Shown: piece after piece, positions 49,851 through 64,000 of the stretch
Layout of the letters: each line of letters opens with the position of its first letter
Numbering within the stretch: the stretch's first letter is position 1
Source of the DNA: Undibacterium sp. KW1
GTDB lineage: Bacteria; Pseudomonadota; Gammaproteobacteria; Burkholderiales; Burkholderiaceae_D
Assembly (NCBI RefSeq): GCF_009937955.1
Contig: NZ_AP018439.1
Location: 4,340,001 to 4,404,000, forward strand
Length of the DNA stretch: 64,000 nucleotides
Direction: 5' to 3'
The notes under the pieces: model-generated
What the model was told of the DNA's origin: nothing
Databases searched by the model: none
Seen by the model: only the letters and a program-made list of their open reading frames with translations
Program-made: the position numbers and the translations under genes

Positions 49851-50408
49851 ATGCAACGCTACTATCCCAACCTTCAAGCCATTCACCAACAGACCATGCA
49901 GCTGGAGTACGCGCAATGCAAGCATTGTCAGCAAACACAGCACTTGGTTTCGCACGGCTTCATCCGCAAGAAACGCTTGGGTGCCGAACCGCAAGCAGTT
50001 GGCAAACGCGTCTACTGCTCCAACCGCCATCATCGCACCGGTTGCGGGCGTACCATGCAGCTTTATCTGGACTCGACCATCCGCTATTTACATCATGCTG
50101 GCTGCTGTGTGGTGGCGTTGGTGCTCTTGCTGATGGCGGGCATGACCGTCCAGCACGCTTATCACCAGGCGACCGGTGTCAGCATGCCGCGCAATGCGTA
50201 TCGATGGTTGCATCGCTTACACATGCAGGCGAGTGTCTACCGTAGCTTACCGCACCGACCACCACTACAGGATGCCAATCCGTTCATGACAACACATCGT
50301 TCTGCGCGTCTGGGGTCATTGATGTCAACATTCCAAACCTTATTGCAGCGCTTTGGACAGCACCTTTGCACGGCCTATCAGTCGCAATTGCAACGATCAT
50401 TTCTGTGA
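49851..50408 (+). CDS. Transposon zinc-ribbon protein
   Basis: 185 residues. Near the start is a zinc ribbon (AQCKHCQQTQHL, then YCSNRHHRTGCGRTMQLYLD), as in the DNA-binding starts of IS1/IS1595-type transposases. A hydrophobic stretch follows (CCVVALVLLLMAGM), then a helix-turn-helix-like basic part (ATGVSMPRNAYRWLHRLHMQ). It is the first gene of the transposon, and the next gene starts 164 bp later. It might bind ends or targets, the place taken by TniQ/TnsD in larger relatives, but that is a guess. Confidence 0.65.
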   Translation: MQRYYPNLQAIHQQTMQLEYAQCKHCQQTQHLVSHGFIRKKRLGAEPQAVGKRVYCSNRHHRTGCGRTMQLYLDSTIRYLHHAGCCVVALVLLLMAGMTVQHAYHQATGVSMPRNAYRWLHRLHMQASVYRSLPHRPPLQDANPFMTTHRSARLGSLMSTFQTLLQRFGQHLCTAYQSQLQRSFL

Positions 50409-50572
50409 TGCGTGTTCGCCGGTCGTCAGACTTTTTTCCACATTCCCATCGTTTCTGTAGATTCAGCTCCATTGATTTCTCTTTCCTTGCCCGTGCAACA
50501 GGTTTTGACTCTCGATCATTTTGGATGACGCAGATAGGCTTTGCCTTCTTTTTTGACTCAACAGGAGAACGC

Positions 50573-51817
50573 ATGGCTGCTAAACCTTCATTTGAATTAC
50601 GACTACGGGTGTTGAATGCCGTGCATGATGCCCCCGGCAATAGCATGCGCGAGCGCATCAAGTTCGTCGCCGATAAAACCTTTATCGATGGCTTGTCAGG
50701 TCACCTGCACCAGTTCACCTGGCGCACCATCAGTACATGGCTGTATCGTCATAAAAGCCATGGCATGACCACCCTGCAAAACAAGACCCGTTCCGATAAA
50801 GATGCTTATCGCAAGGTGCAGGTGAATCAGTTGGCCGAGGCAATCCATGAAGTGCTGCCGACGCTGACACACAATAAGGTCGGCGTGATCCCCAAAAGCG
50901 TTCTATACCGGGTACTTTTGCAGCGCGGTTTGTTCACCCGCTCGCAATTAGCACCGACCACGTTTTATAGGATGATACGCACCCACCAGTTACTGGATGA
51001 CAAGGCTGTGCAAAAGCAACGCTTGTCGTTTGCCATGCAGTTCGCCAATCAATTGTGGCAAGCTGACACCTTGTATGGCCCGACCATCAAACAGGCGGAT
51101 GGTCATTGGAGAAAGACTTTCCTGATCGCCTTCATCGATGATGCGTCCAGGGTGGTGACACATGCCGAGTTTTTCTACCGCGACAATACCGAGAACATGG
51201 TGTTGGCCTTCCGATCGGCTTTATACAAGCGCGGTAAGCCGGAGCGGCTCTATTTCGACAATGGCGCGAATTATTCCGCCAAGGAAATTCTGCAGGCTTG
51301 TGTGCGGCTGGATATTCATCTCTCTCATGCGCCGATTCGTGACGGTGCGGCCAAGGGCAAGATCGAGCGTTTCTTCAGGGGGTTCCGGGATCGCTTTCTG
51401 ACCTTGCATCCCAGCTTCACGTCTCTGGAAGAATTGAATCGCCTGACGCATGAATGGGTGGAGGGGGAATACAATTCGAAGTCTCATAGTGCCATAGGGA
51501 TGACGCCGGTTGATCGTTTCAATCTGGACCGTAACCGGGTGAAGTTTTTGACTGACGATGCGTTTTCTGCAGAAGTGTTTTTTATGGAGGAGACGCGTAA
51601 GGTGAGTAAGACCAACGTATTCTCGATCCATTCGCAGCGCTATGAATGCCCGGTCGATTTACGCGACAAATCCATTCAGGTGCGCTATGACCGCATGCGC
51701 CGTGACCGTTTTGTGGTGTATTTCAACGGCCACCGCATGGGGGAAGCAACGGTGCTGGATTTATACGCCAATGCGCGCTTGCGTCTGCCGGCAACGGTTG
51801 GGGGGCATGATGATTAA
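50573..51817 (+). CDS. DDE (rve-type) transposase of the compact transposon
   Basis: 414 residues from the ATG at 50573, with AGGAG 5 nt upstream; the longer frame to 50366 has no family sequence. N-terminal helical DNA-binding parts are followed by the integrase-like core. The first Asp is in NQLWQADTLYGPTIK, the second in LYFDNGANYSAKEIL, and the Glu in GAAKGKIERFFRGFRDRF. Then comes EYNSKSHSAIGMTPVDRF and a C-terminal beta domain. It corresponds to TniA/TnsB in role (strand transfer), but is shorter than Tn5053 TniA. The next gene's start overlaps its stop by 11 nt. Confidence 0.9.
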   Translation: MAAKPSFELRLRVLNAVHDAPGNSMRERIKFVADKTFIDGLSGHLHQFTWRTISTWLYRHKSHGMTTLQNKTRSDKDAYRKVQVNQLAEAIHEVLPTLTHNKVGVIPKSVLYRVLLQRGLFTRSQLAPTTFYRMIRTHQLLDDKAVQKQRLSFAMQFANQLWQADTLYGPTIKQADGHWRKTFLIAFIDDASRVVTHAEFFYRDNTENMVLAFRSALYKRGKPERLYFDNGANYSAKEILQACVRLDIHLSHAPIRDGAAKGKIERFFRGFRDRFLTLHPSFTSLEELNRLTHEWVEGEYNSKSHSAIGMTPVDRFNLDRNRVKFLTDDAFSAEVFFMEETRKVSKTNVFSIHSQRYECPVDLRDKSIQVRYDRMRRDRFVVYFNGHRMGEATVLDLYANARLRLPATVGGHDD

Positions 51818-52634
51818 GGCCACCTTCGGTTTAACTAAAGAGCCGTTTTACCGCAGTGAGGTGGCGTTGTTGCCGCAGCAGGCCGAAGCCGTGGAGATGA
51901 TCAGGGTTCATGCGCAGCACGGGGGCTTCTCGGTGATTGTGGGTCATCCTGGCGTCGGCAAATCTGTCATTCGCGAACATCTGGAACACTTGGGTAAGGA
52001 GCGCGATACGGTGGTGGTGTCTTTTAGCCAGACGATGCATACTTATCAGCCTATCTTGAAGCAATTGGCGGAGTCGTTGCAGGTGAATGCGCCAATGAAA
52101 GACATTGAAAAAGAGCTGATACAAGCGGCTTACCGTCATGTACAATCGCAAAAAACGCTGTATATCGTGATCGATGAGGCGCACTTGCTGGATGTGGGCA
52201 TTTTACGTAAATTGCGCTTGTTGTTTGAGCGTTTCCCTAAAAAGCACAATCTGGTGTTGCTGGGGCATCCTGAGTTGATGTTTCGTTTGTCAATGACGTG
52301 TAATGAAGACATCAAGAGCCGGATCAGTTATTCCAGGCAGGTGTTGCCGTTGCATGACGATGACTTGACCAAATTTGTCGTCACCGAGCTGGCTGCTGTT
52401 GGTTTGGGTGCCAACACTTTCGATGAGGCAGCCTTGCAGGTCGTATTGCGGGCGGTGCAGGGTAATTTGCGGCTATGTCGTAACCTTTGTTACGCTAGTC
52501 TGATTGCTGCTTGCCTCGATCATCAACGCATTTGCACGGTGTCGCATGTCAATGCCGCGCTTCTGCAGCCGCACTGGCGTTCACACGATGCTTTGCTTAA
52601 GCAACAGGTCAAACCGCAGCGGGTGCCATCATGA
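51807..52634 (+). CDS. AAA ATPase of the compact transposon (TniB/ExeA-like)
   Basis: 275 residues from ATG 51807 (or 51810), with GGGGGG just before. The start FGLTKEPFYRSEVALLPQ is typical of ExeA/GspA-type ATPases. Walker A is VIVGHPGVGKSVIREHL, Walker B LYIVIDEAHLLDVGIL, then LVLLGHPELMFRL and the sensor R of SRISYSRQV. In transposition such ATPases (TniB/TnsC/MuB) mark target DNA and activate the transposase. It is translationally coupled to the transposase and to the next small gene (ATGA). Confidence 0.88.
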   Translation: MMIKATFGLTKEPFYRSEVALLPQQAEAVEMIRVHAQHGGFSVIVGHPGVGKSVIREHLEHLGKERDTVVVSFSQTMHTYQPILKQLAESLQVNAPMKDIEKELIQAAYRHVQSQKTLYIVIDEAHLLDVGILRKLRLLFERFPKKHNLVLLGHPELMFRLSMTCNEDIKSRISYSRQVLPLHDDDLTKFVVTELAAVGLGANTFDEAALQVVLRAVQGNLRLCRNLCYASLIAACLDHQRICTVSHVNAALLQPHWRSHDALLKQQVKPQRVPS

Positions 52635-52868: not shown

Positions 52869-53413
52869 ACACGACATTCGATATGACGGCAATTTGGTTG
52901 TCGTTATGATTTAAGTGAAGCTGGACATGCAAAATCGTATGACCGGAATGGGGTAATCCCGGCTCAATCTTGCCAAAATCGTGCGATGACAATTTGGGAG
53001 GAAGTACGATGGAAGCGGCGTGCGCAACAGTGATGCTGCCATTAATTACTTACATAGCTCGATTGAACTTCAATGGCATTGTTTTGTTACAGACAACCAT
53101 TTTCAAACCGAAACTCTTTTTCAAATTATCAGCAGTTTAGTTGAGTGGATAGATGGTCATGCAGTCTTAACTGAAGATGAAAAAAAACAGTATGTATCAA
53201 TTGTGATAGCACAACTTAGCTCTGTAGAAATACAAATTTTCTTTTTATACAGCCTAAAGAACTATGAAAAAAGAATGAATTTATTCACAAAATATAGATT
53301 CTTTAAAAATCTAGATTCTAAACAACGCGCTCTCGCATTTGTTAAACAATATGGTATGAACGCTAATTCGTATAGTTCAGAAGCATTTGATGTTTTTTAA
53401 GTGATGAAAAACA

Positions 53414-53445
53414 AAAGCCCTGATACCTTTGAGTATCAGGGCTTT
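53414..53445. terminator. Terminator of the abi gene
   Basis: A 13-bp stem AAAGCCCTGATAC / GTATCAGGGCTTT with a 6-nt loop, starting 13 bp after the abi stop, then ATTCTTT. It can act on both strands. Confidence 0.88.
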
Positions 53446-53721: not shown

Positions 53722-54744
53722 CTAAATTGGCTCTATGTTTTCCCTAAATCCATTTTCCAGCAAACGGATATGTCCTCGGGTAGCAAGGCGCATCCAGTAA
53801 TAAAATTGCGTGCTGGTGATTTGTTGCCAATGAATTTTGAATTTCCAGAGAGACAAATATTTGGAGACTATCAGCATCGCCATTCTTTGATTGGCATTGA
53901 CGAAAGGATGGATCGCCAGAAAATCCGAAAACAGTCTTGCAGAAAATTTGACCGCTTCCTGAATCCCAGCGGGCTGATGCTCACTTGCTATAGCCAACAG
54001 AGTATCAACTGCGGGAGATAGTTCGGTATGTTGTACGAACACAGTGTCACCGCGCTTCAAATTAAAGCTGCGGTACTGGCCATAGTACTGAGGTCGATTA
54101 GGACAGATTGAGACGTGAGACGCAAATAAGGCGGATGCACTGAGCGCAGTCAATGGCAATGGGGCATGAAAAATTGCTTTCGGCAATAATGCAGTTTGAG
54201 CATCGTAGGCCAAGAACGCATTTCTGTCATAGCGGCCTTGATAGCAAGTCAGACAGGGTAACAAGTACAGTTTAGGATGACGCTCTCCTTTGGGAATAGC
54301 AGGACCCAGATGATGCATACGTATTGCATAAGCAGTGCATGCACTCTGCATAAGTTCATCCTCAAAAGAAAGATTACAAACCTGCTCCGAGTAGCCAGGT
54401 AGGGCAGCTACAAAATAATCCTGCTCCAACTTCAGTAACAAAAAACAATAGCCAGATGCATTCATGACCAGCACCGGCCAGGATGCGACTGTTGCCGCAA
54501 TCTCTTCTTGAGCAATGCCCATAGTTTGCATACCCAGGCGACGGCTAAGTACCTGAAAAAAACGCCCTGTAGTCTGACCATGCGGCATCGGAGCCAGACC
54601 CAGCAAATGCGTGAGCCTGACCTTGATGCCTGACAAATTCAAGAGGACAGAGAAACAAGCCAGAAGACTGGTTTCGCTTTCGCGGCATTCTATTTTACCG
54701 ACGAGCTTACTGTATTCTAGTTTTGCAATTACTTCATATGACAT
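53722..54744 (-). CDS. C39-like domain fused to a degenerate Fic domain
   Basis: 340 residues. Residues about 20-135 resemble the C39 peptidase-like domain at the start of HlyB/RtxB type I exporters (SLLACFSVLLNLSGIKVRLT, VLSRRLGMQTMGIAQEEIAA, PVLVMNASGYCFLLLKL, EQDYFVAALPG); whether the Cys is catalytic is unclear. The C-terminal 100 residues carry a Fic/Doc motif, IHPFVNANQRMAMLIVSKYL (about 278-297), keeping H, P, F, N and R but with Asn for the acidic residue and ANQ for GNG. Fic enzymes transfer AMP or phosphate to proteins. It follows the Rhs toxin and immunity genes 109 bp downstream, so a link to Rhs release or defence is likely but unproven. Confidence 0.72.
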   Translation of the reverse strand: MSYEVIAKLEYSKLVGKIECRESETSLLACFSVLLNLSGIKVRLTHLLGLAPMPHGQTTGRFFQVLSRRLGMQTMGIAQEEIAATVASWPVLVMNASGYCFLLLKLEQDYFVAALPGYSEQVCNLSFEDELMQSACTAYAIRMHHLGPAIPKGERHPKLYLLPCLTCYQGRYDRNAFLAYDAQTALLPKAIFHAPLPLTALSASALFASHVSICPNRPQYYGQYRSFNLKRGDTVFVQHTELSPAVDTLLAIASEHQPAGIQEAVKFSARLFSDFLAIHPFVNANQRMAMLIVSKYLSLWKFKIHWQQITSTQFYYWMRLATRGHIRLLENGFRENIEPI

Positions 54745-54853
54745 CGCTTTTTAACTATCTGATTGTCGAGGTCAAATCTAGTGCTCATTTCATTTTTGAG
54801 TCTCGTAGGAGTGGTAGACTTGAGCCCGTCTTGGGTATTAGTCGCAACAAACT

Positions 54854-55174
54854 TTAGGTGGAAAGAATAGCCCTCAACTCAGCAACTATCTCTAGTGCCT
54901 GGTTTTTATATTTTCTATCCCATTCTGGCAACCAATTCTGAGGTTTACCTTTGGACTCCCAATCATCCAAAGCCAAAGCATTGACTATTTCCAGTTCCAT
55001 CCAAATTCGCCTATATTGAGTCTGGAGATCTTCAACCTCCCCGCTAACATTATTCGCGCAATGTTTTTCTGATTCCCAAACAAACTTTGCAAAGGCAGTG
55101 TGATTTGCAGTAGCCAATTCTGCATCTCTCAAAAAAGCAGCTACATCAACATCTCCAAACGATATGTGTTCCAT
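54854..55174 (-). CDS. Probable immunity protein of the Rhs toxin
   Basis: 106 residues, helical and acidic (SFGDVDVAAFLRDAELATAN, then EDLQTQYRRIWMELEIVNAL and ending YKNQALEIVAELRAILS). The family is not recognised. It starts one base after the Rhs stop, and its ribosome-binding site GGAGGAAAG is formed by the last Rhs codons. That position, directly after the variable toxin end, is where cognate immunity genes lie. It should bind and block the DUF4258-like toxin in the cytoplasm. Confidence 0.75.
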   Translation of the reverse strand: MEHISFGDVDVAAFLRDAELATANHTAFAKFVWESEKHCANNVSGEVEDLQTQYRRIWMELEIVNALALDDWESKGKPQNWLPEWDRKYKNQALEIVAELRAILST

Positions 55175-55175
55175 T

Positions 55176-58100
55176 CTACTTTCCTCCGTACATTGTTGTT
55201 ACAACTTTACCGTCACTATTCGTAACCACAGTGACATTATTAGTTTTGCTAAAATAGATTGTAGTTCCACCTCTTCCAGGAGTTGCTACTCCATTCGCAA
55301 TAGTATCAGCGATCACCGAAGGCATAATTCCGCGGTCTTGCATTCGATCAAGAGCATGTCCAGAATAATCCGTGTTGTCTACAGTTCCAGCTTCGTTTCG
55401 AACAGGCTGGTAACCTGGATTTTTGGGCTGATTCATTTGGTTGTATCTGCTGCCCAACGGCAATGATGACCCAGATTCCGATGTATTTGTTGCACCTGAT
55501 TTCGAATCCGACGTATTGCTATCTCCACCATTCATCTCAGTATATATGGCACCAAGCCCAGCCGCATCTCCTATCCCCAATGTCTGGAATCCTCCGCCAG
55601 CGGTGACAGACGTCTTATCCGGGTCCAGCTTTGGAGTTGAGGTAATGCCATCCGATTTATTGTTGGTACTTGTTTGTCCAAATCCACCACCGACTGCACC
55701 ACCTTTGGCACCAGTAAGCGCCTTATCTCCTTCGCTTAATCCAGTAGATCCACCACCAACTGCACCACCATTGGCACCAGTAAGCGCCTTATCTCCTTCG
55801 CTTAGTCCTTTAGATCCACCACCAACAATCACATCATTTTGACCATCTGGATTTATACCGAATACGTTAATCTTAAAGTTAGTCAACGCCTGCCCTGGAT
55901 CTGTAAAGAGCGTGTAGGCACCATTCAATGCAGACGTAAAACCTGGATTGTTAGCCTTAAAGTTATTCCATGCCTGCCCTGGATCTGTAAAAAGTGTGTA
56001 AGCGCCATTCAATGCAGACCCTAATTCAATCTGGAACTTGCCATAGTTGGAATTACCGAAGTTAAGTCCGCTACTCCCTTGCGTACCTCCGGGAACAACT
56101 ATTGGCATAAATGTCAGTGTGCCAAATGGTGTTAGTATTGGCATCTGTGTTAACACCGATTGTGGAATAACATACCCAGTAGGGGAAAAGGGATCCTTTT
56201 TAAGGTTAATTCCAGCATCGTCAAATCCAGCCACAAAAGCATTATCGCCACTTGCCCAAAGTTTTGCGCTATTTGGCAGATTAGGATATCCCTGCTCGCC
56301 GGGGGTAACACTCCAATTTATTGAATTAGTACTGGACGCAACCGGTATGTTAATCCCAAGGAGCAAATCAACAATATTCGGGACATCAACTTTATCGATT
56401 TCGGAATTACTTATTAGCGTCGTTGCAGAATCTATAACGCCAGTCAATGATTTAAAACCTACTGCTGGCTCAATTGATTGGTGCCCCCCGAAATTCCATC
56501 CATCCTGAGCCATCAGTTGGTTGACAATAGCAAAATCGGCAGTCATCCAGTCAGCATTACTGGAATCATCGCCATCAGTCGCCCCTAACGTCATATACGT
56601 CCCGTCAGCCAGCCTGTATTCAAACGAATTCCTGGTGTCCGACCATCCTTGCGCACGCGCATCATTGAGCATATCCGTGTATGCCATATGGCTAAGATGA
56701 TAGGGATTATCGTAGCCAACAAATTGGTAATGTCCGTCAGCCATTTTCATGAATGGACGGTCGCCATTAAATATGGAAATAGGCCCATAGTATCCGCCAT
56801 CCAGCATTTCAGGATTCACCTCCGGATTGCTCAGGGCCAAACTCTTATACACAGAAGTTGTTGCAGTTTCATTTCCCAAGTCCTGAGCATTATTGTTTGT
56901 CCCAGTCCCAGCCAATGTCGGATTAACATAATTATGGTTCTTCTCAGCTGACATCGCATTAGTCCTGTCTTGCGCCGCATCCGCTGTCCCCAGATTCACC
57001 GCATTCTGATACCCATTCACCGCATACACCGCATTGCCCGTCACATTCGCATTGGCATTATTAGTCGCATCCACATTGGCTTTAAGCGACACGCTAGCCA
57101 CTGTTGCCGCAGCAAGCGTCCCTGCTGGCCCCGTCGGCGTCGTCGGCGTCACTGGCTGTAACGCAGCGATTTGTGTATTAATACTACTAATTTGCGACTT
57201 CAAGCCATCGATATACGACGTCCATGCAACCAGGGTTGATGAAGCTGATGGGTTGGATGCCGTCAGTCGCTGAAGTTGAGTGGTTGCCAAGGCCAACATA
57301 TAAGCACGCATATTCAACTCTGTCTGCAACGTGTTCAAATCATTCGATGTGACAGGTGCAGGTAAAACTGGTGGCTGCGGCAAATTCGGATTCGTCGGCG
57401 TGCCTGGGTCAGTTGGATTTGTTGGATTCGTCGGATTGGTTGGCGTAGTTGTACCACCACCTCCTGGCGTGGTACCTGTATATGTACTGATTTGCGTGTT
57501 CAGCGTAGCAATTTGTCCCTGCAGGGTTGCTATACGCGCCTTCAGGTAATCTACCATTGTGTCTGTCGTATGCGGATCGACGTCATATAGTCTTTGCAAT
57601 TGGACCAGCGCTACACTCAACTCACCAGTACGTTGCGCCAGTTCAGCCCGCAATGACGCCAGGTCAGTTGGAGGTGGAGTGGTTGGCGCAGTACCCCCTG
57701 TATCCAGTTGCGCTTGCAACGCCTGAATTTGAGAATAATAGTCTGCAATTTGCGCACGATAATCAGCAATGCGTCCTTCTTCGATAGAGGCCAGCAATGC
57801 TTCATCGGCAGGATGCGTATCGTGAATCCTCGACAAATTATTAAGGCTATAAGACAGATTTCCCGTAGCAGCATCCATCTTTACTTGAAGAGCAATGATC
57901 TGCGCTTCAATATCTGACGTGCTACTAGTACTACTAACGCTACTCAGGCTGGCCCGCATCATCATCGGCGCAGGACTGAAGTCTTCACCACCTTCTTCGC
58001 TACTATCTTCCACCGCTACGCTCATGTCACTGTCATCAGCAACATCGGTCACATCTTCCACCGCCATCATGCTAAACATGCCGCGTGCCGCAAACAAGGC

Positions 58101-61100
58101 CGACTGTGTCGGTGCTGCCTGCGCTGACGATTGTGCCGTTGGAGCCGGAGTCGGCTCCACCCATACATCCGTCTTACCCGTCCCATTGCCACTGTTCGCC
58201 GCAAAGTTATTATGGTTCGCCCCCGTCCAGCTATTAAACACCTGGCCATTCACGATCAGGTTACTCGTCGCCGTATTGGCCTGCTCACTGATCAGAACCT
58301 GTCCATGCACATCCGTGACCTGATGTTTGTAAGACGTCACGGTCGTGTTGTTCGTGAACCGCTCTTCATGCTTGACCTGGGTTTTCTGGCCATTGACGTC
58401 GTAGCTGATTTGCTGCGTGTTCCAGCTCGTGAGTGTTGACCAATCACCATTGCTGTAGTTAGACTGAATCTGGCTTTGCAAATAGCCTTCACCGAGTATC
58501 AGGTCGAGCGATACGTTGACATTATTACCTGCCATGTCACCGCTGCTGTAACCACGCAAGTGTCCTACCGCATCATAGGTACTATAGTTACTTACATTCG
58601 TGCTCTGCCCTTGGACGTTGTACGTCACCTCTTTCCTGAGCAAGCCATTAGCATCGTAGTAATGCGCCTTCCTGGTCGCCGTTTCCGCAAACGCCGCCTT
58701 CTGTACATCCTGCAAGGCCTGCAGATACCCTGCTGCCAGATTGTCGTTAATCCCTTCCTGCAACAACCTGCCCGCACCGTCATACATGCGTTCATCCACC
58801 ACAGTCGCAAAGTATTGCGGCAGTGCATTGCCCTGCTGGTCATAACTAGCCACCGCCACTTTGCTGACACGATTCGCCGCATCATAGCTAAAGTAACGGG
58901 TAATCATGCCTTCGCGCACGATATAGGTGGTGCGGCTGGTATCGGGCTGACCGTTTGCCCCCAGCGGAATCTGTGCAACCAGCTCCTTGCCCCAGGCCGT
59001 GTCGCTGGCGACATTGCCATTCTTGTCGTAGGTGAGCAGATGCCCCTGGGTGCTGTTCAGACTGCCCTGGTCTGCTGTACTGCTGGTGCCTTCCACCAGC
59101 GTTTGCCTTTGCATGCTGTCATAGGCATAGCTGTTGTTATGCACAGCCGCATTGATTTGCACTGTTTCATGGCTGACTGTGTGTGTACTGCCACTGATGC
59201 TGACCTGGCGTGTCGTTGTCCCTGCAGTCTGGGCAACCTGGATATTGAGTTCGTGCTTGAGGTTGCCAGCTTTGTCATATTCCAGGGCGCTGGTATAGCC
59301 ATCATCCAATGCCTCGATGAGAGAAACCTGACCCTGGGCGTTATAGCTCAGGCGCGTGTTTTGCAGGCTGATGTCAGCCTGGATGGTTTGCTCACGGGTA
59401 TGCTTGCCTGCCAGGTTATAGCTATACAGGGTAGTCTTGTCGGTCGCCAAGTCGCGGATCTGGGTGACTTGCCCAGCTTCGTTGTAGTGGTAGTTAAGGT
59501 TTTGGCCACGGGTATTGGTCTGTTGCAGCAGTTGACCCGCGCTGTCATAGCGGTAGGTGTAGGTGGCTCCTCCAATGTCTTTGTGACTTTGCAACTGGCC
59601 TTGGACATTGTATTGCCAGGTACTGACGTTACCATTGGCATCGCGATGAGCGATCTGGTTGCCCTGGGCATCATAGGCAAACTGGTCATACTGCCCCAGG
59701 GGCTTTGTCGTGAGGATGAGGTTGCCACGCAAGTCGTAGCCATATTTGGTGGTTTCACCATTGGCATTGCTCTTGGCAATGACACGTCCTGCTTCGTCGT
59801 AGCTGGTGCGGCTGACCAGGCTTTGGATTTTACCGGTCACATTGCCAGTATCAGTACCATAAACGCCAACAGGGTCGCTGGTGGTCTGGAGCAGACGGCC
59901 CAGTTTGTCATATTCGTAGCGGGTGTGATTGCCATTGGCATCCGTCAACTGGACCTGCTTACCAAAGTTGTCATAGGCGTGGCTGACGATGCCGCCATCA
60001 GCATGGGTTTCTTTGATCAGCTGGCCGCTGGCATCGTAGGCCATGCGGTTGACGTTGCCGTTGGCATCTCGGTTGGCGATCTGGCGGCCCAGGCGGTCGT
60101 AATAGATTTCAGTAATGGCACTGTTGGCGCTTTGCTGGCCCGCGGCATCCGGGCTGATCTGGCGGATTAGCTGGTTGTTGGCATCGTACTGGAAGGTTGT
60201 GACACCATTGTAGCCATTGAGGTCACTGCGGCTGGTGAGGTTGCCCCAGCGGTCGTAGCTTTGGCGGATCACAGGCGTTTGACCATCGCGGGTCGGCAAC
60301 GTCAGGGTGACGGCACGGCCAAGAGCATCGTACTGGCTGGTGCTGCGGCGCAGACCGGCGACGCTATCGGCTTCATGGGCAGTACTGATGTTGGACAGCG
60401 GGTCACCATTGCCGAGGTTGAGGCTGGCGGTGCTGATGCCTGCACTGGTCAGGGTGACAGTCTGGCGGCCTTGTACGTCGTATTGCATGACGCGGGTGAC
60501 GCCACCGCTATTGGTGCGCCAGAGGTGGCCGGCATTGTCATAATCGAAAGTAGCTACGTCCTGGCCATTGCTGCGTTCGCGGATGGCTTCATCAAAGGCG
60601 TTGTAGACAACTTCATTACGGACTACTGCTGTCTGGTTCTGGTTGATGGCCGTGAACGGACTACCGTTCGTCGTGACCTGTACATTACTGCCCGGTGTGA
60701 TGCTGGCGGTGCGGCGGCCCAGGGCATCGTATTCATAGGCAGTGAACAGAGTATGCAAGCTGCCATCGGCATTGGTGACGCCTTGCCATTGCTTGCGCAG
60801 GTGGTTTTGTGCATCGTAAGACGCAAAGTGATTGATGCCATTGGCGTCGGCATTCTGCACGACATTGCCGCGCACGTCATAACGGGCCAGGCTGATGTGG
60901 TCATCGTTGCTGATGCTGATCGAGGAATAACTATACTGACCCACGGAACTTGCAGCATTGGCATAGTCACGCTTGGTGACGACATTGCCATAGGCATCTC
61001 GGCTGTATTCTGTCAGCGTGATCAGAGTGGCACCAGCTTCTGTCGTAGTCCCTGGCTCTGCCACTGCTTTGAGGCGGTTGAGGACATCGTAATAACGGTA

Positions 61101-64000
61101 GCTGCGGTTACCTTGGGCATCAGTGCTGCTGATGACATTACCCAGGGCATCGTATTCAACACTGGTCGTGACATTGCCACGGCTGCGCTGGCCAGTGCTG
61201 ATATCGTTGGTACCATCACTGAAACCCACATTGATGCGGGTCTGGCTGATCTGGCGGTTGGCCTTGTCATAGGTAAACAGTGTCGTACGGTCATCACTGC
61301 TATTGACTGGGAAGACCAGCTTGCCATTCGCATCAACACTACCTGCATTGGCATACTCTGTACTGCTGATGACATTACCCTGTGCATCGTAAGTCCTGAA
61401 GCTGACATAGCCGAGTGCATTGATACTGGCGGTTCTTTGACCTTGTTTGTCATAGAAGTAACGGCTGACTGTCCAACTGTCGTTTGCAGGGTTGCTGAGT
61501 ACGGCTGTCTGCGACAGGTTGCCGAACACGTCGTAGCTGTAGCGTGTGATTTTGGAGGCCAGTACGCTGGCTTCACCTGCGCCGCCGCTGTTGACCCAGG
61601 TGGCAGGTTCAGTAGTTTCTACCGCACGGCCGAGTTGGTCATAACGGCTGGTGGCAATCCTGTCCTGGCTATGGTCCAGACCAGCCAGTGCCGTAGTAAC
61701 CTGACTGTTGACTGGTGCCTTGCCTGCCTGGCCACTGAGCGTAGTGGCATTGATCGATGTGGCATAGCGGGTGACTGAGGTTGTGTTACCAAAGCTGTTG
61801 CGGCTAAAGCCAGTGACATTGCCAAGCGCATCAATGTCATAGCTGACACGGCCGAGTTTGTCGTAAGTTCGGTAACTGTAATTGCCAGCTACATCGCGGC
61901 TGGCGGTGACATTACCAAAGCTGTCATAGGTGACTGAGGCTTCCAGGGTGACGGACTTTTCTGATCGGGTGGCGAGGCTGTTGGCGCCATTGGCACCGAG
62001 ATTGTCAGTTGTCGCATCGTAGACTGTCGTCGCCGGATAGATGGTCTTGGTCTGACGTCCCAGTGCATCATATTCAAAGCGGGTGACGCGTTGCTCTGGA
62101 CGGCCAGCAGCTTCGGTGCGGCTGGTAAGGTTGCCGAGTGCATCGTAGCTCATGCGGCTGACGAGGGCTGCGCTGACCGTTGTGCCTATCTGCAAATTGC
62201 CATTGGCATCAACTGTGACGCTGGCCATGCTGACGACAGGCGAGGTTTCGCTCAATAAGCGACCAGCAGCATCGTAGTCATAGGTCCAGGTGGCACCTAT
62301 TTTATTGCTATAGCTGATGCGGTTACCCAGGCCATCATAACTGAAACGCTCTGTATTGTTCAAGGCATCGGTATGGGCGATCAAACGGCCATCGGCATTG
62401 TACTGGTAGCTCTGTATCTGATCTGCCGCGTCCGTTGCTGGCATGGCGCCATTTTCAGTCAAAGGATTTGGGCTGGCAAATGTAGCTGCCGGTAAGGTTT
62501 TGGCATACTCGGTCGATTTGACCAGGCGACCGAGGGCATCATAACTATAGCCCTTGACATAACCGAGGGCATCAATGCTGAACAGCACGCGGCCACTAGC
62601 ATCATAAACCTGGCGCTGGACATGGTCATTGAGCGGATCGGACTGCAGCAGGCTGCGCACGGTTGCTGACGACACCACTGCTGGCAGATTGGCCGCATTG
62701 ATGGTGTGTGCGTAGCTGATGGTGCCGACCAGGTTGCCGTTGGCGTCGTAGCGGTTTTCTGCAACGGCACCCTGGCTGTCGATCGTGAACAAGAGCCTGC
62801 CTGCAGTGTCACGGGTATAGCGCACATTGCGGTCTTGTGTACTGTCAACTTGCAACTGGCTGGCGATCTCGCTGCTGCTCAGTTGGGTATTGGCATTAGG
62901 TGCGGCTATGGTATTGGCATAGGCAATACGCTGCGCCAGTTGACCATTGGCATCATAGATGTAGTGACTGACGCTGCCATCGGCGTTGACCTGGTAAGAC
63001 AGGCGGTTGGCATCGTCATAGCTCATCAGGGTGACGCGGTCGGCATCACTGGCCTGCACTGTTTCTGCTGCGGCGTTGGCGGCGATGGCATTGGCGTACT
63101 GGACCTGCTTGGTCAGGTTGCCGTTTTTGTCGTAGACCAGATGGGTAACGGCACCACTGGCATCAACACTCCAGGTGAGGCGGTTGGCGGCATCATAAGT
63201 ACGGTGGACATGGGCATCATGTGCTGCATCAGCCAAAGCTGCTGTGGCGGTTGCCAGCGCGCTGGCCGTCATCGGGGTAGTGGCAGGCAATGAGGCGGCG
63301 TAACTGACGACATCGACGACGTTGCCATTGGCGTCATAGCTGGTTTTAGTAACGGTACCGGTGCCGCTGACAACGTAAATGGGACGATTCAGTGCATCGT
63401 AGACAGTTTGCACACGCTGGTCATGGGCGGCATCTGCCACGACAGTTGGCGTGGTGCCGGGAACCCAGTTTGCCAGGTTGATTTCTTTGGCATAGCTGAT
63501 GCGTTCTGTGACGTTGCCATTGGCATCATAGGTATAGCGGGTGACGCTGCCAGTGCCATCGATGCTGAAACGGACATGGCCATCTTTGTCATACACACGG
63601 CTTTGCTGGACATCGTGCAGGCTGTCTGCCTGCGCTCTGGCAGCGACGTCGGCGATTGTTGCTGTCTCGCTTAAACCTGTCAGAGATATCGGCGTGACAT
63701 AGTTGATGACGCTGACGACATGGCCTTCATTGTCGTAAGTGTTCTTTTGAACAGCGCCACTGGCATTGATGGTGTAGACCAGACGGTTATTGCTGTCATA
63801 TACGTAGCGGGTCAGGTTGCCGTTGGCGTCGCGGGCTGCGACGACATTATTATTGTCGTCGTACTGATAGCTACGGGTAACGTTTTGACCTGCCGGGTCA
63901 GTGTGCTCGGCGATGCGGCGGCCCAGAGCATCATAGTCATATTGGACGACATTGCCTGCGGGACTGGTGACGGTCAGCACCTGGCCTCGCTGATCATAGC
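55176..64000 (-). CDS. Giant Rhs/YD-repeat polymorphic toxin, N-terminus outside window
   Basis: Over 2930 residues in the window and open to the right edge, so the start is missing. About 1-1940 (counted from 63980) is a run of RHS/YD repeats (YDANGNVTERISYA, YDALGRLVKS, YDYDAAGRLLSETSP) that form the cocoon-like shell of Rhs toxins. Next, about 1940-2016, is a low-complexity acidic linker. About 2016-2277 holds three helical-hairpin units of about 65 residues (EAQIIALQVKMDA, ASLRAELAQRTGELSVAL, NTLQTELNMRAYMLALA) joined by Pro/Thr linkers. A unique region and two duplicated segments follow. The last 65 residues, SGHALDRMQDRGIMPSVIAD to TTMYGG, match DUF4258, a likely nuclease-type toxin. 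The usual core-closing DPxGL motif was not found. Confidence 0.93.
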   Translation of the reverse strand, partial: YDQRGQVLTVTSPAGNVVQYDYDALGRRIAEHTDPAGQNVTRSYQYDDNNNVVAARDANGNLTRYVYDSNNRLVYTINASGAVQKNTYDNEGHVVSVINYVTPISLTGLSETATIADVAARAQADSLHDVQQSRVYDKDGHVRFSIDGTGSVTRYTYDANGNVTERISYAKEINLANWVPGTTPTVVADAAHDQRVQTVYDALNRPIYVVSGTGTVTKTSYDANGNVVDVVSYAASLPATTPMTASALATATAALADAAHDAHVHRTYDAANRLTWSVDASGAVTHLVYDKNGNLTKQVQYANAIAANAAAETVQASDADRVTLMSYDDANRLSYQVNADGSVSHYIYDANGQLAQRIAYANTIAAPNANTQLSSSEIASQLQVDSTQDRNVRYTRDTAGRLLFTIDSQGAVAENRYDANGNLVGTISYAHTINAANLPAVVSSATVRSLLQSDPLNDHVQRQVYDASGRVLFSIDALGYVKGYSYDALGRLVKSTEYAKTLPAATFASPNPLTENGAMPATDAADQIQSYQYNADGRLIAHTDALNNTERFSYDGLGNRISYSNKIGATWTYDYDAAGRLLSETSPVVSMASVTVDANGNLQIGTTVSAALVSRMSYDALGNLTSRTEAAGRPEQRVTRFEYDALGRQTKTIYPATTVYDATTDNLGANGANSLATRSEKSVTLEASVTYDSFGNVTASRDVAGNYSYRTYDKLGRVSYDIDALGNVTGFSRNSFGNTTSVTRYATSINATTLSGQAGKAPVNSQVTTALAGLDHSQDRIATSRYDQLGRAVETTEPATWVNSGGAGEASVLASKITRYSYDVFGNLSQTAVLSNPANDSWTVSRYFYDKQGQRTASINALGYVSFRTYDAQGNVISSTEYANAGSVDANGKLVFPVNSSDDRTTLFTYDKANRQISQTRINVGFSDGTNDISTGQRSRGNVTTSVEYDALGNVISSTDAQGNRSYRYYDVLNRLKAVAEPGTTTEAGATLITLTEYSRDAYGNVVTKRDYANAASSVGQYSYSSISISNDDHISLARYDVRGNVVQNADANGINHFASYDAQNHLRKQWQGVTNADGSLHTLFTAYEYDALGRRTASITPGSNVQVTTNGSPFTAINQNQTAVVRNEVVYNAFDEAIRERSNGQDVATFDYDNAGHLWRTNSGGVTRVMQYDVQGRQTVTLTSAGISTASLNLGNGDPLSNISTAHEADSVAGLRRSTSQYDALGRAVTLTLPTRDGQTPVIRQSYDRWGNLTSRSDLNGYNGVTTFQYDANNQLIRQISPDAAGQQSANSAITEIYYDRLGRQIANRDANGNVNRMAYDASGQLIKETHADGGIVSHAYDNFGKQVQLTDANGNHTRYEYDKLGRLLQTTSDPVGVYGTDTGNVTGKIQSLVSRTSYDEAGRVIAKSNANGETTKYGYDLRGNLILTTKPLGQYDQFAYDAQGNQIAHRDANGNVSTWQYNVQGQLQSHKDIGGATYTYRYDSAGQLLQQTNTRGQNLNYHYNEAGQVTQIRDLATDKTTLYSYNLAGKHTREQTIQADISLQNTRLSYNAQGQVSLIEALDDGYTSALEYDKAGNLKHELNIQVAQTAGTTTRQVSISGSTHTVSHETVQINAAVHNNSYAYDSMQRQTLVEGTSSTADQGSLNSTQGHLLTYDKNGNVASDTAWGKELVAQIPLGANGQPDTSRTTYIVREGMITRYFSYDAANRVSKVAVASYDQQGNALPQYFATVVDERMYDGAGRLLQEGINDNLAAGYLQALQDVQKAAFAETATRKAHYYDANGLLRKEVTYNVQGQSTNVSNYSTYDAVGHLRGYSSGDMAGNNVNVSLDLILGEGYLQSQIQSNYSNGDWSTLTSWNTQQISYDVNGQKTQVKHEERFTNNTTVTSYKHQVTDVHGQVLISEQANTATSNLIVNGQVFNSWTGANHNNFAANSGNGTGKTDVWVEPTPAPTAQSSAQAAPTQSALFAARGMFSMMAVEDVTDVADDSDMSVAVEDSSEEGGEDFSPAPMMMRASLSSVSSTSSTSDIEAQIIALQVKMDAATGNLSYSLNNLSRIHDTHPADEALLASIEEGRIADYRAQIADYYSQIQALQAQLDTGGTAPTTPPPTDLASLRAELAQRTGELSVALVQLQRLYDVDPHTTDTMVDYLKARIATLQGQIATLNTQISTYTGTTPGGGGTTTPTNPTNPTNPTDPGTPTNPNLPQPPVLPAPVTSNDLNTLQTELNMRAYMLALATTQLQRLTASNPSASSTLVAWTSYIDGLKSQISSINTQIAALQPVTPTTPTGPAGTLAAATVASVSLKANVDATNNANANVTGNAVYAVNGYQNAVNLGTADAAQDRTNAMSAEKNHNYVNPTLAGTGTNNNAQDLGNETATTSVYKSLALSNPEVNPEMLDGGYYGPISIFNGDRPFMKMADGHYQFVGYDNPYHLSHMAYTDMLNDARAQGWSDTRNSFEYRLADGTYMTLGATDGDDSSNADWMTADFAIVNQLMAQDGWNFGGHQSIEPAVGFKSLTGVIDSATTLISNSEIDKVDVPNIVDLLLGINIPVASSTNSINWSVTPGEQGYPNLPNSAKLWASGDNAFVAGFDDAGINLKKDPFSPTGYVIPQSVLTQMPILTPFGTLTFMPIVVPGGTQGSSGLNFGNSNYGKFQIELGSALNGAYTLFTDPGQAWNNFKANNPGFTSALNGAYTLFTDPGQALTNFKINVFGINPDGQNDVIVGGGSKGLSEGDKALTGANGGAVGGGSTGLSEGDKALTGAKGGAVGGGFGQTSTNNKSDGITSTPKLDPDKTSVTAGGGFQTLGIGDAAGLGAIYTEMNGGDSNTSDSKSGATNTSESGSSLPLGSRYNQMNQPKNPGYQPVRNEAGTVDNTDYSGHALDRMQDRGIMPSVIADTIANGVATPGRGGTTIYFSKTNNVTVVTNSDGKVVTTMYGGK
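55690..56016 (-). repeat. Two tandem duplications inside the Rhs gene
   Basis: In protein terms, GLSEGDKALTGA-GGAVGGG occurs twice (DNA about 55690-55830) and SALNGAYTLFTDPGQA-NFK occurs twice (about 55865-56016). The DNA copies are nearly identical, so the duplications are recent. They sit just before the toxin domain, where Rhs genes recombine. Confidence 0.8.

Follow-up and report, generated by a model that had tools for sequence, protein, structure and literature searches.

In Rhs polymorphic toxins, the core of the protein ends in a DPxGL motif that precedes the toxin tip. Two further groups of described proteins bear on the locus analysed here. C39-like domains (CLDs) are N-terminal parts of ABC exporters with the C39 fold, no catalytic Cys and a capacity to bind unfolded or leader-bearing cargo, and two papers describe the CLD of HlyB as tethering unfolded cargo without cutting it (PMC8277102, PMC6363468). 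For Fic proteins, PMC8401265 assigns the acidic residue of the Fic motif a part in magnesium binding and states that a side chain at the second glycine disturbs canonical ATP binding; Doc, which has Lys at this second glycine, binds ATP in an inverted orientation and works as a kinase; for BepC, where Lys replaces the acidic residue, no enzymatic activity is known.

In 5.39 million open-access full texts, no paper came up for C39 domains together with Fic domains, and none in open-access full texts combined Fic, polynucleotide adenylyltransferase and bacteriocin. The one paper on polymorphic toxin systems found with both Fic and C39, PMC3482391, describes a C39-related toxin domain listed with Cys, His and Asp, a different domain from the one here. 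Here we describe a C39-like/Fic fusion, the 340-residue protein P0001, encoded behind an rhs gene in the window, by which we mean the whole 64,000-nt stretch of DNA analysed (G000:C1:4340001-4404000, from a genome of 6.69 Mb).

The rhs locus and the gene behind it

As the original prediction had described, an rhs gene, an immunity ORF and the C39-like/Fic gene follow one another on one strand, the minus strand of the window. The 3' part of the RHS-repeat protein occupies positions 55176-64000, and its frame runs on past the window's end, for 3953 open codons in all. Its RHS/YD repeats are clear (PF05593, 441.4 bits; TIGR01643, 302.9 bits), the RHS_core model NF041261 gives 174.6 bits for a cut-off of 2000, and there is no match to DPxG[LMWIF] in the 2934 Rhs residues inside the window. 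The variable C-terminal tip (55176-55499) includes a weak match to DUF4258 at 55260-55367 (PF14076, 19.5 bits versus a cut-off of 25, covering positions 1-27 of 71); of 43 genomes in the genus, 1 has this tip, namely that of the window. Sequence matches of the tip in the PDB, to repeat proteins in many weak pieces and, weakly, to a metabolic enzyme, were attributed to chance, as was a 15-bit PADLOC match of the immunity ORF.

Past the window's end, an upstream 726-residue ORF with RHS repeats sits in a different frame from the long Rhs frame (L009 6819-8999 and 1-7038, respectively; G000:C1 about 4406.8-4409.0 kb). The two are both open over about 220 nt, and thus either the frame of the whole rhs gene is broken or two genes overlap. 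Very long RHS-repeat open frames were also observed at G000:C2 about 59.8-80.1 kb (8277 codons) and G000:C1 about 4496.4-4511.2 kb (9143 codons).

The spacing of 1 nt that had been proposed between rhs and its immunity gene proved exact: the Rhs frame ends at 55176, the junction reads TAG-A-ATG, and a 106-residue immunity-type ORF follows (P0002, 54854-55174, minus strand), for which there is no curated family match. The ORF of P0001 (53722-54744, minus strand) starts 109 nt past the end of P0002. Within this gap (54745-54853), a simple scan found no minus-strand promoter-like site; overall, that scan did no better than shuffles (6 sites found versus 4.9 expected). Downstream of the fusion gene, an inverted repeat with T-rich flanks at 53414-53445 is terminator-like on both strands; the terminator scan, too, did no better than shuffles, with 2 found in the scanned region versus 2.1 expected.

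The toxin tip (G+C 0.44), the immunity ORF (0.41) and the fusion gene (0.46) are all low in G+C relative to the Rhs body (0.53). At 50366-52634 lies a mobile element near the fusion gene, made up of a transposase with an rve domain and, after it, an AAA ATPase gene; this pair together with the low G+C values fits a locus that acquires foreign genes. At 53020-53400, a 126-residue ORF with a G+C of 0.315 matches putAbiC (PF16872, 41.8 bits) and is perhaps a fragment of an abortive-infection gene.

A C39-like domain without its triad, joined to an altered Fic domain

Family, profile and fold comparisons of both halves of P0001 upheld its description as a C39-like domain plus a Fic domain. The C39-like domain covers residues 9-148 (54301-54720, minus strand) as judged by fold range and alignment, with a PF03412 match below the cut-off. 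A single two-profile comparison relates this N-terminal part to the C39 domains of exporters (E 7e-9), and in another genome, G118, the fusion-family profile itself picks up an ABC exporter by its C39-like domain. The catalytic Cys (ECGLACL in active exporters) and His (HFVVL) face other residues in all eight aligned fusion proteins, and the catalytic Asp (DP) is replaced in seven of the eight, P0014 from G040 retaining it. With all three residues replaced, P0001 falls outside the C39 peptidases, and like a CLD it has the C39 fold without the catalytic Cys. No ABC domain was matched in its 340 residues, and it is not the N-terminal part of an ABC exporter. Residues 151-241 are poorly modelled in the structure model.

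Both a curated profile and the fold place P0001 in the Fic/Doc family, the Fic domain extending over residues 202-340 (53725-54141, minus strand; Pfam range 202-297). Its motif, HPFVNANQRMAM, at residues 279-290 (53875-53910, minus strand), departs from HPFx(D/E)GNGRxxR, the motif of canonical Fic AMP transferases. Among 12 non-redundant members of the family (P0001, P0004-P0010, P0012, P0013, P0020 and P0021), the motif His is invariant and Phe is kept in 11, the first Gly is kept in 4, the second Gly is replaced by Gln in 6 and by Arg in 6, and the second Arg is missing throughout. Asn stands at the acidic position in 12/12, and likewise in remnants from G210 and Roseateles puraquae, which supports the expectation that the Fic chemistry is likely altered. 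Set beside what PMC8401265 says of these positions, the changes imply that P0001 is not a canonical AMP transferase; judged from its sequence, the Fic half could be either a Doc-like kinase or a pseudoenzyme, and we retain both.

Distribution and surroundings of the family

The family is rare. A search of 5.8 billion entries yielded 6 proteins, P0001 included, and two further searches of 5.8 billion at least 8 proteins each, again with P0001, among the best 7997 and 7996 candidates by shared words; in the first search, three homologues bear a genus name, in each case Undibacterium. Near-full-length matches were found in 4 of 392 genomes of the bacterial family, the window's own among them. For single genera, the counts were 1 of 43 in the window's genus (again its own genome), 2 of 74 in that of G328 and 1 of 40 in that of G320. 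At E 1e-10, the order sample gave 2 of 399 genomes (its own and G465, the latter with the Fic part only) and the class sample 1 of 369 (its own); these genome sets share members, and for family, order and class each set is a subsample of a larger group. Neither plasmids nor phages gave a match to P0001, nor plasmids to the G320 and G328 proteins. The family was seen in 0 of 18 candidate stretches of viral contigs and, for genome contigs, in 0 of 133 stretches in a first scan and 2 of 35 in a second.

Matches to the Fic part only or to the C39-like part only were set aside (G118, G122, G319, G227, G063, G132, G465, G144, G315); among the rows read, Asp occupies the acidic position in L020, L025, L026 and L027, and L018 has one stop inside. 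Shortened remnants of the fusion gene occur at L037 10001-10411 (Roseateles puraquae) and L024 8659-9240 (G210) without the usual neighbours. P0008 and P0009 are two different family members, probably neighbours on one contig, because the longest contig is 10,716 bp for each. P0005, P0006 and P0007 belong to Undibacterium sp. Ji49W, Ji83W and Di26W, with longest contigs of 141-177 kb, and the contig of P0021 measures 9,501 bp.

The surroundings of three full-length relatives from other genera (G328, G320 and G040) and of the two remnants were read over 17-21 kb each; eight of the 12 members (P0004-P0010 and P0021), including all those from Undibacterium except the window's, lie outside this neighbourhood count. 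In G328, an HlyD-type gene, a C39 exporter, a 102-residue ORF with the double-glycine leader MRLISDVETKMVSGG, a 111-residue ORF and a PolyA_pol-type gene precede the fusion gene, which overlaps the PolyA_pol-type gene by 4 nt. The label HlyD-type reflects position, size and mutual similarity, and the PolyA_pol domain of G328 is named by the NCBIfam pcnB and CCA models at scores below their cut-offs. The order in G320 is an ABC exporter with a C39 domain, an HlyD-type gene, a 163-residue ORF, a transglutaminase-like gene and a single 703-residue protein (L022 8667-10778) in which the C39-like/Fic protein is fused to a poly(A)-polymerase-type domain. In G040 (Duganella sp. Leaf126), a 189-residue ORF and a transglutaminase-like gene come before the fusion gene and a PolyA_pol gene after it, and the 19 kb covered there show no homology to an exporter or to HlyD. 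A poly(A)-polymerase-type nucleotidyltransferase thus accompanies the fusion gene in all three readable full-length relatives (adjoining twice, fused once), a transglutaminase-like gene in two and a type I exporter in two.

The 163- and 189-residue ORFs (L022 6181-6672 and L023 12008-12577) are related to one another and have neither a family match nor a GG leader; each lies upstream of the transglutaminase-like gene, which the fusion gene follows, and their products are possible cargo.

None of the loci read (L021, L022, L023, L036, L024, L037, of which L036 overlaps L023 and L024 and L037 are the remnant loci) showed RHS homology. The original prediction had proposed that the C39-like part recognises the Rhs protein while the Fic part modifies that protein or a target, a proposal opposed by this absence around three full-length relatives and two remnants, by the nucleotidyltransferase and exporter as recurrent neighbours, and by the window's genome, where at least five separate RHS-repeat places (150 of 527 candidates being scored) stand against one copy of the fusion gene. 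Because the readable relatives lie elsewhere, we have set back an Rhs partnership as the leading view. The proposal was also to fall if homologues occurred mainly away from rhs genes; this holds for the readable relatives and so only for part of the family, 8 of whose 12 members lie outside the survey of surroundings.

The window's fusion gene also stands apart from its relatives' usual neighbours. Two PolyA_pol matches occur in the genome, presumably the housekeeping genes pcnB and cca; as neither is close to the window, a nucleotidyltransferase partner nearby was rejected, and the locus lacks the partner that recurs among the relatives. A nearby C39 exporter was likewise rejected, the single genomic match lying at about 603 kb. 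This ABC exporter and its HlyD-type protein are 64% and 51% identical, respectively, to their G328 counterparts, and between the HlyD-type gene and the exporter is a 128-residue GG-leader ORF beginning MRLITNEELLVVAGG. The whole group (L040 5416-11543; G000:C1 about 599.4-605.5 kb) runs from the HlyD-type gene through the 128-residue ORF, a 410-residue ORF and the C39 exporter to a 120-residue ORF, and is likely a peptide-export cluster. A simple pattern for leader-like small ORFs found none among 491 ORFs of 40-250 residues in the window, 156 in G320 and 149 in G040. A first double-glycine leader pattern found nothing, and a looser one picked out a single ORF in L040 and another in L021; the looser pattern is no independent test, because it was made after both leaders had been seen by eye.

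Candidate roles and known systems

We tentatively favour the view that P0001 serves cassettes for the export of peptides or proteins as a cytosolic accessory which modifies their substrate, and that its gene has come to lie, orphaned, behind rhs and the immunity ORF. The dead C39-like domain is kin to those of type I and PCAT exporters and would bind the leader, or else an unfolded segment, of an export-bound protein, and the Fic domain, with its Doc-like motif, would move phosphate or another phosphoryl-linked group onto the held cargo. In relatives, the PcnB-like nucleotidyltransferase would work with the Fic part or be fused to it. The window copy would act in trans, and the double-glycine peptide cluster that the genome has at a distance of 3.8 Mb is one conceivable target. 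Cargo binding, catalysis, the type of modification, the substrate and action in trans are all putative properties of P0001. In favour of this role are the fold and profile identity of both halves, the kinship of the N-terminal part with exporter C39 domains, the neighbours in the three clusters of relatives, and the likeness of the genome's own exporter and HlyD-type protein to those of G328. Counting against this role are the small number of informative clusters, only three and all in the window's bacterial family; the loss of the acidic metal ligand of Fic; and the lack of a partner nucleotidyltransferase and of a leader-like ORF at the window. The cluster of G040 shows no exporter or HlyD homology within the 19 kb covered, Pfam sees no C39 domain in the fusion proteins of G320 and G040, and most of the C39-like domain is absent from P0007 and P0008.

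Somewhat unlikely, in our estimation, is that P0001 is a bystander: a stand-alone Fic gene of defence or toxin type that was brought into variable DNA downstream of rhs, functionally unconnected with Rhs and export, its C39-like part being regulatory or sensing. The low G+C of the fusion gene and immunity ORF relative to the Rhs body, the downstream transposase, AAA gene and putAbiC-like fragment, and the rare and scattered occurrence of the family would suit such a gene, as would a match to the PADLOC phage-defence candidate PDC-S04 (E 5.1e-12), confined to the Fic part at residues 222-338, and a score of 22.2 bits with the Doc-family profile TIGR01550, below its cut-off of 38.65. However, three relatives have the same nucleotidyltransferase partner, one of them as a fusion, which points to a pathway, and there is no antitoxin family match in the ORF next to P0001, nor was an antitoxin-type neighbour recognised.

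A more ambitious form of the export-linked role, which we consider unlikely, is that C39-like/Fic proteins make up, with PcnB-like nucleotidyltransferases, a new machine for modification ahead of export, in which the dead C39 domain would recognise the leader or cargo, and Fic and nucleotidyltransferase would decorate a ribosomal product with phosphate or nucleotides before its release by a type I exporter; the window's Fic part would act in trans or have been recruited elsewhere. It is decidedly unlikely that the Fic half is non-catalytic and that P0001 serves an exported protein as a chaperone or binding adaptor. The Asn in place of the acidic residue, the Gln or Arg at the second Gly and the missing second Arg, each in 12/12, are consistent with such a pseudoenzyme, in which both domains of P0001 would be dead, and BepC offers a parallel (PMC8401265), but the invariant His argues otherwise. 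That P0001 is the third member of an Rhs system is very improbable given the 109-nt gap, the surroundings described above and the single copy of the gene in a genome with at least five RHS-repeat places, and this reading, which draws on the immediate succession of the immunity-type ORF and the P0001 gene on one strand, keeps a low weight chiefly because P0004-P0010 and P0021 are outside the survey, the closest relatives (P0004-P0008) among them, so that a genus-level tie is possible. An export-linked modifying role is likelier for P0001 than membership of that system.

If the export-linked role is true, stand-alone modifying enzymes have taken over C39-like domains of exporter type to recognise their cargo, and Fic chemistry and a poly(A)-polymerase-type enzyme join the peptide-tailoring activities. 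The family offers a testable case of a Fic domain that lacks the metal-binding acidic residue in all 12 known members and keeps the catalytic His. For Rhs biology, the locus is a caution that a same-strand gene behind an rhs-immunity pair need not belong to the pair.

Compared with known systems, the window's rhs gene resembles Rhs polymorphic toxins in its repeats, its low-G+C tip and the immunity-type ORF 1 nt downstream, and differs in lacking DPxG[LMWIF] in the window part and in having a third gene outside the known layout. Unlike the CLDs of HlyB-type and PCAT exporters, that of P0001 is not followed by transporter membrane and ATPase domains, and its His is replaced too. With Doc and the non-canonical Bep Fic proteins (PF02661), P0001 shares the Fic fold and the His, Asn and first Arg of the motif, and its family shares with Doc a bulky residue at the second-Gly position (PMC8401265); it differs in the Asn that replaces the acidic residue in 12/12, the missing second Arg, the attached C39-like domain and the lack of a recognised antitoxin. 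The window copy is without a cluster of the double-glycine peptide/type I secretion kind, whereas its relatives in G328 and G320 lie beside a C39-type ABC exporter and an HlyD-type gene, with a GG-leader ORF in G328, as in such clusters, to which they add a Fic protein and a PcnB-like nucleotidyltransferase.
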